In this document: positions 15,729-18,579 of the stretch, one piece after another
Layout of the letters: the number at the start of each line of letters is the position of its first letter
How positions within the stretch are numbered: position 1 is the stretch's first letter
Virus record (IMG/VR): IMGVR_UViG_3300014820_000015
Location: 1 to 22,922 of that record
DNA from: a virus
Length of the DNA: 22,922 nucleotides
Strand: one strand, 5' to 3'
Made by a program: the position numbers and the translations under genes
The notes under the pieces: generated by a model
Told to the model about the DNA's origin: nothing
Seen by the model: only the letters and a program-made list of their open reading frames with translations
Database searches by the model: none

Positions 15729-15755
15729 GTCCCTATAGTCGCTATCGTCGCTATG
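15729..15755 (-). repeat. Three tandem 9-bp repeats at the integrase stop
   Basis: On the minus strand three consecutive 9-mers read CATAGCGAC, GATAGCGAC and TATAGGGAC, i.e. NATAGCGAC with one mismatch in the last copy. They overlap the integrase stop codon and lead into the AT-richer gap before the next gene. Tandem iterons of this kind are typical of protein-binding sites. An Int, Xis or repressor operator are the candidates. Confidence 0.5.
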
Positions 15756-17277
15756 GTTGAGTTCCGCCCCGCACCACCCGCATCACCCTCTCCCGCTCCT
15801 CCGCCGTCAATAACGCCCACCTTTCCGCCACCTCCGCCAGCTCCCCTACCCCCCGCGCGTCGGAATGCGCGTCACTTTTCCATCCCCCCTCAATTTCCCC
15901 AGCATTTTGCGGGGTGTTCGAGTCCCTCAACGCCCAATCAGACCCACCAGATAATACCTCTTCCTGAGCTATTACCAGTGTTTTCGCCTCCTCACCCCCC
16001 TCTATCTTCCCTAACATTCCCCCACTTTCCCCACCAGGGCGCGTCGGAATGCGCGTCAACTCCGGAACGCCACCTTCCTGGATAGCACGCTGGAAGTGGT
16101 CATCCTTGGCCGGGTCGTTGAGGTAGTGGATCACCGCCACTTGGGGGGTGTTCCCGATCCAGGCGCACGCCGTCTCCAGGGGATAGGCCTGGAAGAGCTC
16201 CGTCTCCCGGCTCGCCCGCAAATTCTGAAACAGCCGCGGCCAGGGTTTTAACCCCGCCCGCTTCAGGATTCGCAGGAACTGCGTCCGCAGGTTGGCTGCG
16301 GCGCTCCTGGACCGAGTGATGACCCAATCCTCCGCCCCCTCCGGCAGCTCGTCATACGCCGCCTGGAGGGCCTTGCGGAGCTCGGGGAACAGGGGCAGGA
16401 TCCGGGCCTCCCCGCCATGATGGTGCTCGGTCTTTGGGGAATGCACGGTGAGCGAGTTTTTCTCCCAGTGGACATCGCTCCACTTCAGCGCCAGATGCTC
16501 GCTCGGGCACCGCAGCCCCCCGTACCGGCTCAGGATCACGATCAGCTTCCACTGGTTGTCGGGGCAGGCCTCCAGGGCCGCGGCGATGACGTCCTGGGTG
16601 ACGAAGAATTTCCGGGCGGCGTTGCGCTGCTGGCCGCACTTCACGCCGGCGAACGGGTTCTCCTTGATGTAGCCCCAGCGCAGCGCCTTGTTGAAGATGT
16701 GCCGCGCACAGAGGATACGCCGGGAGATCGTCGCCGCCGCCAGCTTCCGCGTCCTGGGCTTCTGCGGCTCGCCCTCCGCCGGCTTGCGATACCCGCTGGC
16801 CGCGGATCCGCGTCCAGCCTTGCGTTCCGCAAAATCATGCGTCCCCATCCAGGCATGAAAGGCGTCCGCCTCCCTGGGCCCGATCGCCAGGAGGTCCGTC
16901 TGCTTCCCGAAGTGCCCGAGCAGGCATCGCCGGGTGTGCCCGTAGGACGTCGTCGTGCCGGGCTTCACACGTAGCGCCGCAAAATATTCATCGAGGAATC
17001 GCACCAGGGTGACCGCCTCGCGCACCGTGCGTGGCGGAAAGAGTCCCGCGGCGGCGAGCTGGTCGTACATCTTCGCCGGCAGTTCATTCACCCACCGCAG
17101 CACGTCGACCGCCAGGTACTGCGGCGTGCCCAGGCACGCGATGATGCGGGTGATTTTGTCGGCGACATCTTCCGCCGCCTTCGCCGGCACCTCCCCCAGT
17201 CGCAGGCTCCGGCGCTTGCCGCCGGCCTTGAAGCTGATGCGCTTCCGCCCATTGGGATCATTCACGACACTGGCCAT
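15751..17277 (-). CDS. int: Tyrosine-family site-specific integrase
   Basis: 508 residues from the ATG at 17277, with GGAG seven bases upstream; it overlaps the preceding gene by 20 bases. Residues 1-40 are basic and could form the arm-binding domain. Residues about 85-190 are the core-binding (SAM-like) domain (AVTLVRFLDEYFAALRVKPG, then YGHTRRCLLGHFG). Catalytic domain: RYGGLRCPSEHLALKWSDV (Arg256), HSPKTEHH (Lys282), RLFQNLRASRETEL (Arg354, with Asn-Leu-Arg where most have His-x-x-Arg), WIGNTPQVAVIHYL (nucleophile Tyr385). The N-L-R and G-N changes are ones I know from Planctomycetota integrases. After the tyrosine come 120 more residues with an ALRDSNTP motif, which is the antisense of a tRNA T-arm and marks a probable attP inside the gene. 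The last part (ELAEVAERWALLTAEERERV) resembles the planctomycete integrase tail. Confidence 0.93.
   Translation of the reverse strand: MASVVNDPNGRKRISFKAGGKRRSLRLGEVPAKAAEDVADKITRIIACLGTPQYLAVDVLRWVNELPAKMYDQLAAAGLFPPRTVREAVTLVRFLDEYFAALRVKPGTTTSYGHTRRCLLGHFGKQTDLLAIGPREADAFHAWMGTHDFAERKAGRGSAASGYRKPAEGEPQKPRTRKLAAATISRRILCARHIFNKALRWGYIKENPFAGVKCGQQRNAARKFFVTQDVIAAALEACPDNQWKLIVILSRYGGLRCPSEHLALKWSDVHWEKNSLTVHSPKTEHHHGGEARILPLFPELRKALQAAYDELPEGAEDWVITRSRSAAANLRTQFLRILKRAGLKPWPRLFQNLRASRETELFQAYPLETACAWIGNTPQVAVIHYLNDPAKDDHFQRAIQEGGVPELTRIPTRPGGESGGMLGKIEGGEEAKTLVIAQEEVLSGGSDWALRDSNTPQNAGEIEGGWKSDAHSDARGVGELAEVAERWALLTAEERERVMRVVRGGTQP
15855..15874. repeat. 20-bp direct repeat, copy 1 (putative integrase arm site)
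   Basis: Identical to 16039-16058. Each copy is itself two GCGCGTC heptamers separated by GGAAT, followed by A. A similar 23-24 bp G-rich element on the minus strand lies near each copy (15884-15906 and 15995-16018). The two copies are 184 bases apart, not a multiple of three, so they are read in different frames of the integrase gene. This argues for conservation at DNA level. Confidence 0.75.
15911..15936 (+). other. tRNA T-arm/acceptor-like segment, candidate attP core
   Basis: The plus strand reads GGGGTGTTCGAGTCCCTC, then AACGCCCA. GTTCGAGTC is the canonical T-loop of bacterial tRNAs. The flanking stem pairs at four of five positions (one G-T wobble, one T-C mismatch), followed by seven acceptor-like bases and a discriminator A. 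No matching 5' half (D-arm, anticodon) is found upstream, so this is a 3' fragment, as phages carry at attP for integration into a host tRNA gene. It lies within integrase codons 448-456, between the two 20-bp repeats. Confidence 0.55.
16039..16058. repeat. 20-bp direct repeat, copy 2 (putative integrase arm site)
   Basis: Exact second copy of 15855-15874, in the same orientation, on the other side of the tRNA-like segment. In the integrase frame this copy encodes LTRIPTR, while the first encodes SDAHSDAR, because the frame differs by one. Confidence 0.75.
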
Positions 17278-17575
17278 GATTCTTCTCCGCCGGCACATCA
17301 TCGCCAGCGGCGCTGTTGTGGGCAATAAAATCCTCAAGATCCGATTTCCTGACCCGCACCACCTTCCCCCGTTTGAATCTGGGCACCGGCCACTTGCGGA
17401 ATGTTTTTGTGGAAACCCCCATCCGCTTCGCCGCCTCATCGAGCGTGATCATGTCGAACGTCTCGGCCGCGGCCGGCGTCGCCGACGGAGACGCCGCGAC
17501 CGGCACATCGTGGCTGGCGCTCTTGGTGAGTTGCGAAAGCCGCTCACCCCAGATTGCTAGATGGTTCGAGCTCAT
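17258..17575 (-). CDS. Excisionase-like helix-turn-helix protein
   Basis: 105 residues from the ATG at 17575, four bases after the stop of the preceding gene and overlapping the integrase start by 20 bases. After a 40-residue Ala/Ser-rich N-terminus the protein carries a MerR/HTH_17-type winged helix: MITLDEAAKRMGVSTKTFRK, then WPVPRFKRGKVVRVRKSDLE and DFIAHN. The order (helix-turn-helix, basic wing with R-F-x-x-G-K-x-x-R, then D-L-x-x-F-I) is that of phage excisionases and related DNA-binding adaptors. Coupling to the integrase makes a recombination directionality factor the best guess. A transcriptional regulator of the operon is the alternative. Confidence 0.75.
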   Translation of the reverse strand: MSSNHLAIWGERLSQLTKSASHDVPVAASPSATPAAAETFDMITLDEAAKRMGVSTKTFRKWPVPRFKRGKVVRVRKSDLEDFIAHNSAAGDDVPAEKNHGQCRE

Positions 17576-17579
17576 GCTG

Positions 17580-17978
17580 CTACCTGACTTCCAGCAATTT
17601 CCGAAGGCTGACTGGATTGATCCTCCACCGCGCGCGTCTAACGCCCGATCCGATGTCGCGACCGTCGAGTTTTTTAGACCAGATCATGCGGATGACCGTG
17701 CGTGATGTGACACCCAGGTCCTCCGCCGCTTCCTTCGTCGCCGGCCATCCCTTCACCGACAACCCGACTGCTTTTTCTTCTGCTTTTTCTTTTGCTTTAT
17801 CCATGGCACTCTCCAAATTCGATCCATCCTTACGATCCACGCCATCCTTAGCCCGCCCCCTCCCCCCGGTCCGAGTTTCGCGGCTGTACACGGCCGGGGA
17901 ATCCATGGTCTGGCGGGCCATCGCCTTGCGGAAAAACACCCCCCTGCCTCCTGTCGCATGCGGATCAGGCTGGCTCAC
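17580..17978 (-). CDS. Second helix-turn-helix DNA-binding protein
   Basis: I start at the GTG at 17978: it overlaps the upstream stop as GTGA and has a perfect AGGAGG seven bases upstream, giving 132 residues. An internal ATG at 17804 with GGAGAG would give a 74-residue form, so both may be made. The N-terminal half is basic and Gly-rich, with FFRKAMARQTMDSPAVYSRE. A Lys/Glu/Ala tract (MDKAKEKAEEKAVG) comes from a purine-rich DNA stretch. The C-terminal domain reads WPATKEAAEDLGVTSRTVIR, then MIWSKKLDGRDI and RRARWRINPVSLRKLLEV, a MerR-like helix-turn-helix with a wing. It parallels the excisionase-like gene next to it but the two are not close in sequence. Confidence 0.6.
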   Translation of the reverse strand: MSQPDPHATGGRGVFFRKAMARQTMDSPAVYSRETRTGGRGRAKDGVDRKDGSNLESAMDKAKEKAEEKAVGLSVKGWPATKEAAEDLGVTSRTVIRMIWSKKLDGRDIGSGVRRARWRINPVSLRKLLEVR

Positions 17979-18124
17979 GGCGTCGCCTCCTGTTTCACCA
18001 CCACGTCGATAACCGACACCATCTCCGCCCTGGTCCGATCGAGCAGCAACACCTCCGTCTCCTGCCTCCGGAGGAAGAGGCACAGGGCGTCCGCCTTCTT
18101 GAACCGATACCGGGACACCTGCAT
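17975..18124 (-). CDS. Short ORF (49 aa) in the integration operon
   Basis: An ATG at 18124 shares one base with the TGA of the upstream gene (TGATG). The frame runs 49 codons to a TGA that overlaps the next GTG. The product starts MQVSRYRFKKADALCLFLRR and ends VIDVVVKQEATP. It has a helix-strand pattern with LCLFLRRQETEVLLLDRTRA in the middle, GC3-rich codons, and perfect boundary overlaps on both sides. No family recognised. Confidence 0.55.
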   Translation of the reverse strand: MQVSRYRFKKADALCLFLRRQETEVLLLDRTRAEMVSVIDVVVKQEATP

Positions 18125-18579
18125 CACGCCGCGGGGTATTCGTGCATGGCGACGTGGCCGGCGGAGATTCGGCCGACGAGTTGTTCGCCGGCTTCCGCGG
18201 AGGGATCGTCGCGGAGGACGAGTTGCTCGGCAACGTCGCGGAGGGCGGCGGAGAGCTTTGGCTTGTTGATGCCATCGAGCTGTTGGGGCCGTTCGAAAGT
18301 GGCCTCGAAGATCTCAGGTTTGCACGCATAACGATCGCCCGTAACGCCGGTGATGATCCAGTCTCCAGGTGAAACAACGTGCGGGCCTTCGAGGGTTTCG
18401 ATGATGAGCCGGCCGGTTGGACCACCCTCGTCACAGTTATGATCCCACGTGGAATCTCCGCATTGGGGATCGCTGCATCTGGCACCCATCTCCTTCTCAA
18501 CTCCGGCCGGCCACGGGAAGCGGTCCGGGATGAATTGCTCGGCATTAACGATTACGGGCTTTCTCAGAAACTTGGCCAT
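18124..18579 (-). CDS. Conserved phage protein with TLEG...PGDWIITGV motif
   Basis: 151 residues from the ATG at 18579, preceded by AAGGAG six bases upstream. Opening MAKFLRKPVIVNAEQFIPDR, then a Cys-containing insert (ARCSDPQCGDSTWDHNCDEG; three Cys and one His), then IIETLEGPHVVSPGDWIITG and VTGDRYACKPEIFEATFE. The pattern (K-P-V-x-V-x-A-x-x-F ... T-L-E-G ... G-D-W-I-I-x-G-V-x-G-E/D-x-Y-x-C-K-P-x-I-F) belongs to a widespread phage family that I know only as conserved hypothetical. The C-terminal 50 residues (LSAALRDVAEQLVLRDDPSA ...) are an added helical part. The insert might bind metal. Confidence 0.75.
   Translation of the reverse strand: MAKFLRKPVIVNAEQFIPDRFPWPAGVEKEMGARCSDPQCGDSTWDHNCDEGGPTGRLIIETLEGPHVVSPGDWIITGVTGDRYACKPEIFEATFERPQQLDGINKPKLSAALRDVAEQLVLRDDPSAEAGEQLVGRISAGHVAMHEYPAA

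Follow-up and report, generated by a model that had tools for sequence, protein, structure and literature searches.

A probable attachment site within a viral integrase gene, at which integration would exchange the integrase C terminus

A viral contig of 22.9 kb from IMG/VR, which is incomplete and carries genes for phage head, portal and terminase, contains within its integrase gene (int) a segment resembling the 3′ end of a tRNA gene, with repeats on both sides. We refer to this whole stretch of 22,922 nucleotides as the window. Its arrangement raises the question of whether int harbours the attachment site of the virus (attP) and what integration would then do to the integrase (Int). We conclude that attP very probably lies inside the 3′ part of the virus's own int, with a core derived from tRNA-Val(UAC), and that integration at this site very probably swaps the C terminus of Int. 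Another contig of this virus (L003) is 99.9% identical over 13.9 kb and shows no differences in the attP/int region.

The minus-strand open reading frame that encloses int spans 15751–17439. We placed the start of int at 17277 because M-A-S is conserved there in relatives, and with the resulting protein the assignment of Tyr385 as the catalytic tyrosine, made in a sequence-only reading of this DNA, holds in its original numbering. The match of the catalytic domain to PF00589 exceeds the cutoff, and alignment with relatives revealed the invariant R, K and R in addition to Y385, with the His of HxxR and the His of LGH substituted in this family (QNLR and IGN). A tblastn search with Int gave no match among phage and plasmid records, a scan of IMG/VR with the single protein matched the same virus only, and relatives emerged when an alignment was used as the query. 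We found no prior description of this integrase family in the open-licence literature. Directly upstream of int, an open reading frame on the minus strand (17580–18545) has a weak match to PHROG 66 (excisionase and transcriptional regulator) and is a candidate directionality factor.

We scanned the core, GTTCGAGTCCCTCAACGCCCA, against 84,980 species genomes and obtained at least 120 matches. Nearly all of those inspected were the 3′ ends of tRNA-Val genes, and the anticodon was almost always UAC. Among the matches listed, tRNA-Val genes with exactly this end were present in Planctomycetota, Actinomycetota, Verrucomicrobia and others; a search for a tRNA gene ending in this sequence had been proposed as a check on the initial reading. 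That reading had placed the tRNA-like segment at 15911–15936, within int codons 448–456 and after Tyr385. Its nature as a tRNA 3′ end and its position in the gene stand, but its extent does not: the base directly 5′ of 15916 breaks the match, which leaves 15911–15915 outside and reduces the segment to the 21 bp and seven codons given in Table 1. The left boundary of this core (G-TTC of the T-loop) is where the duplicated sequence starts in many integrated relatives.

The scan also returned copies of GTTCGAGTCCCTCAACGCCCA outside tRNA genes in two Planctomycetota genomes (L120 and L047), where they lie next to sequence resembling an int tail, the arrangement expected of an attR end; these copies are probably attR remnants of related elements. 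From the Verrucomicrobia tRNA matches, only weak int matches were found. The tRNA-Val loci of five MAG contigs titled Bifidobacterium breve (L005, L083, L092, L100 and L118) resemble loci that the scan also matched in contigs with the titles Actinomycetota or Acidimicrobiaceae; the titles may be wrong.

Table 1. Positions of the integrase gene and of the putative attachment-site features in the window
Feature	Position	Strand	Basis or detail
int, tyrosine integrase, free (phage) form, 508 aa, catalytic Tyr385	15751–17277	−	ORF; Pfam PF00589; PHROG integrase; M-A-S start; best fold match lambda integrase
Phage-form C-terminal tail, codons 455–508, expected to be lost on integration	15754–15915	−	Leave-one-out tail HMM, int frame, E=1.5e-6
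Two predicted tail helices, residues about 474–488 and 492–502	15772–15858	−	AlphaFold2, pLDDT about 84–90
Tail-side arm site, units GCGCGTCG (15855–15862) and GCGCGTCA (15867–15874), 12 bp apart	15855–15874	+	41 bp before core
T/C-rich element beside core (tail-side G-rich element of the sequence-only reading)	15884–15906	+	T-run recurs in relatives
attP core GTTCGAGTCCCTCAACGCCCA, tRNA-Val(UAC) 3′ end, T-loop to discriminator base, in int codons 448–454	15916–15936	+	Exact 21-bp match
Body-side arm site, identical to tail-side site, other reading frame	16039–16058	+	102 bp after core

The two arm sites are copies of a 20-bp repeat, GCGCGTCGGAATGCGCGTCA, that are 100% identical and 184 bp apart; as 184 mod 3 is 1, they are read in different int frames. 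The window holds no further copy, even with up to three mismatches allowed, and dinucleotide shuffles yielded a mean of 0.02 matches and never two. Coding DNA of high G+C content yields many short repeats, and the tRNA-like segment and its flanking repeats could accordingly be relics or chance matches unrelated to recombination. We consider this exceedingly improbable given a 20-bp identity held out of frame, an exact 21-bp tRNA end and a layout that recurs both in att-flanked elements and in viral contigs. The shuffles, and the out-of-frame arms of relatives, led us to reject both chance and coding constraint as the cause of the repeats, in agreement with the original claim that the identity of the two copies is not explained by protein coding.

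In an arm layout common to the family, either flank of the core carries a pair of 8-bp units at a spacing of exactly 12 bp, with units such as GCGCGTCG, TGCGCCGC, CTGCACCG and GTGGTACC. Four arm units scored at least 41/48 in 17 of 26 attP sites, the maximum in block shuffles being 41, and the two arm sides were mutually out of frame in about 10 of these 17 well-scored sites. The tail-side pair starts 61–65 bp before the T-loop in 13 of the 17 sites and roughly one or more units further out in the others; in the window it lies at −62/−63, the position seen in most relatives. This distance does not depend on the frame in which the core is read, and the arm unit of one viral contig (L240) is that of the window, though its Int is only 35% identical. 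The repeats are conserved at the DNA level and not as protein, contrary to the pattern that had been named as counting against an attP here. We take the arm repeats to be a case of DNA-level conservation within a coding region and, judging by their layout, to be arm-type sites, which are probably bound by the N-terminal domain of Int. The initial reading had also noted two diverged G-rich elements beside the core. Both are genuine, if weak. On the tail side, the element overlaps a T/C-rich stretch whose T-run recurs at −25 to −22 from the T-loop in relatives and which may provide one more site for protein binding or bending; the body-side element (15995–16018) was not confirmed as a repeat.

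An AlphaFold2 model of Int, built with 28 sequences and numbered one higher than the 508-residue protein, suggests how a coding region could accommodate these sites. Model residues 1–402 form a folded lambda-like integrase, and the best match of the model in the PDB is full-length lambda Int. Residues 1–49 make up an N-terminal domain of three strands and a helix, which by its fold is a putative arm-binding domain. Model residues 403–477 (about 402–476 of the protein) form a disordered linker (pLDDT <50), and the two tail helices fall at model residues 475–489 and 493–503. By fold, Int shares with lambda integrase the three-domain heterobivalent layout (N-terminal, core-binding and catalytic), and its core, like that of lambda, is flanked by arm sites on either side. 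In lambda, attP lies outside int and Int is unchanged by integration, whereas here attP is within int. According to the model, the attachment site falls in the part of int that codes for the disordered linker joining the catalytic domain to a small tail, a segment in which frame and peptide sequence would matter little.

Recombination at this core with a host tRNA-Val gene would leave the tRNA intact and fuse the int body to antisense tRNA sequence. All catalytic residues would remain in the body retained after integration, which would span codons 1 to about 450, and with a Planctomycetota tRNA-Val the predicted prophage Int would end in ...WALRDSNPRPSRCKRDALAN. The original 54-codon two-helix tail would come to lie at the opposite end of the prophage and would lack a start there, and excision would restore the original int with its tail. 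Free virus and prophage would thereby make Ints with different C termini. From the match of the core, we infer that this virus integrates at tRNA-Val.

Integrated relatives display this arrangement in their DNA. We found Int homologues (E up to 1e-20) in 52 of 392 Planctomycetota genomes and read 64 related int loci from this phylum. A tRNA gene lies at the 3′ end of int in 49 of the 64 loci, and in 48 the int open reading frame runs antisense into the 3′ end of the tRNA, the arrangement expected of the window as a prophage. Within the set of 49, the int stop falls inside the antisense tRNA in 44, int reads through in four and the stop comes just before the tRNA in one. The targets cover 12 isotypes (Val 17, Leu 7, Met 6, Glu 5 and eight others). 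In about 20 elements the tRNA end occurs again in direct orientation, over at least 15 bp and up to 57 bp, at a distance of 4.6–16 kb; several relatives have no second core copy within 18 kb. When the element ends were rejoined in silico at the core, int continued for 41–89 codons beyond it, and at the far end of the integrated elements the displaced tail was found behind the second core copy. In about 20 integrated relatives, the C-terminal swap is present at the DNA level. The reading of the locus as attP with a tRNA-derived core was borne out by these relatives, as was the expectation that integration trades the last ~54 codons for host sequence; the attL/attR junctions that had been suggested as a check in prophages of the family lie at the core within int.

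For a tRNA-Lys element, the flanks that are split in one genome (G011) are contiguous in a related genome (G403) at 91% identity, so that the unoccupied site is visible there. No integrated copy of this very virus, with its own attL and attR, was found among the integrated relatives. Planctomycetota are its likely host, the sole basis for this assignment being that relatives of its int occur there. Three loci (L206 (G007:C129), L183 and L193) contain two int genes each and probably represent elements in tandem; in L206, it seems that the inner int continues across a shared tRNA-Glu core into its neighbour's tail. Five further loci in Planctomycetota (L169, L181, L185, L195 and L198) are integrative elements of 4.6–7 kb that carry the family integrase and are below tailed-phage size.

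Free forms were also observed. The alignment query of IMG/VR gave 80 viral contigs with relatives, and int is uninterrupted and followed through its tail in L228/L229, L240, L241 and L248/L249, and probably in L239. A clear tRNA-like core is present in L240, L241 and L248/L249. In the free-form contigs, repeats of 14–22 bp stand on both sides of the core, and these are out of frame in L228 and L241.

Many of the tails match a DLAALVxAWPxLxxxxRxxIxxMV-like pattern, the tail of the window being ELAEVAERWALLTAEERERVMRVV. A leave-one-out profile gave its highest tail score in the int frame for 19 of 20 elements, the window among them; the exception, L219, scored near zero in all frames. The pN/pS of the tails was 0.5–1.0 in the pairs tried, which were short and saturated. 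Because the tail is short and diverged, the case for purifying selection on it rests mainly on the profile and the frame test. No start codon of its own is consistently kept for the tail among relatives, and we rejected an independent tail start on this ground. The conserved tail is encoded whole, as part of Int, only in the free form.

The position of attP could still be a by-product of compact phage layout, with the tail a dispensable, functionless run-on whose exchange has no regulatory effect. The predicted disorder of the linker and a catalytic domain that is complete ahead of the core agree with such a run-on, as do the divergence of the tails, whose pN/pS is near 1 in some pairs, and the short C termini of some relatives. 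Yet two helices are predicted for the tail, which can be recognised in the int frame in elements with many different tRNA targets as well as in free viral contigs, and a run-on would not hold frame and motif; we therefore regard this explanation as unlikely, though it is the most serious of those we weighed. The members of the family with short C termini have no sign of attP within int. On a quick tree, many changes are needed to explain the presence of attP in int, partly since truncated contigs look short, and a single origin was not shown.

Having an attP inside int, and an integrase gene that integration splits, is also the situation in the archaeal virus SSV1 (PMC8371274), and by that precedent integration would inactivate Int and lock the prophage until Int was supplied by another element. 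The likeness to SSV-type integrases extends to the tRNA target. In those integrases, however, the split parts the catalytic from the N-terminal portion and so inactivates the enzyme, whereas in the present bacterial family the core comes after the catalytic Tyr and the whole catalytic domain stays on the promoter side. We judge a self-inactivating integrase very unlikely here and have rejected it, as the catalytic residues all precede the core.

In the integration-dependent immunity of mycobacteriophages such as Brujita, integration alters the 3′ end of the phage gene that bears attP. This system had been offered as a parallel to the window, and it is apt in that the 3′ end of the attP-bearing gene changes; it differs in that attP lies there in a repressor gene and here in int, and the phage Mx8 is the closer experimental parallel.

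In the Myxococcus phages Mx8 and Mx9 (IntP), attP is described as lying in int past the catalytic domain, with a tRNA-derived core, and integration as giving int a new 3′ end (PMC6070905; PMC4383910). Mx8 and SSV are cited together in the latter as integrases extending across attP (PMC4383910, citing Tojo 1996), and the recombinant Mx8 int is described in the former as active after integration, with altered specificity (PMC6070905, citing Tojo 1996 and Magrini 1999). The window core likewise follows the catalytic residues (codons 448–454 compared with Tyr385), and the new C terminus created by integration in Mx8 has its counterpart in the DNA of the relatives. The sequences of the Mx8 and window Ints have no detectable relation (best BLASTP E 0.31), the Mx8 tail does not match the family tail profile (HMM score 0.2), and we found no repeats of at least 10 bp around the core in the Mx8 segment searched. 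Unlike Mx8, the present integrases make up a large family whose members share a tail and between them use 12 tRNA isotypes. The two may have a distant common origin within tyrosine recombinases. By analogy, we describe the family as one with an Mx8-like mechanism, an independent sequence, a widespread occurrence and a conserved free-form tail.

The comparison with Mx8 suggests that the two forms of Int may differ in function. The tailed Int would favour integration, and the tRNA-tailed Int would serve excision or have altered activity. More broadly, it is possible, although we hold this only tentatively, that in this integrase family of Planctomycetota phages and small elements integration acts as a directionality switch, in which the two-helix tail serves integration and the peptide encoded antisense to any of a dozen tRNA genes suits excision or quiescence.

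Integrase genes with their own attachment site have been regarded, myxophages apart, as an archaeal peculiarity, and self-disrupting integrases as exclusively archaeal (review, PMC8371274); here such genes appear to be widespread in one bacterial phylum. The endings 'WALRDSNPRP' or 'GLEPxT' of such integrases are thereby explained as antisense tRNA; the true free-form tail lies at the element's opposite end and is overlooked in annotation. The family spans many tRNA targets, with an in-frame tail that can be encoded within Int only by the free form, and its many natural variants make the effect of the C-terminal swap on integration versus excision testable.
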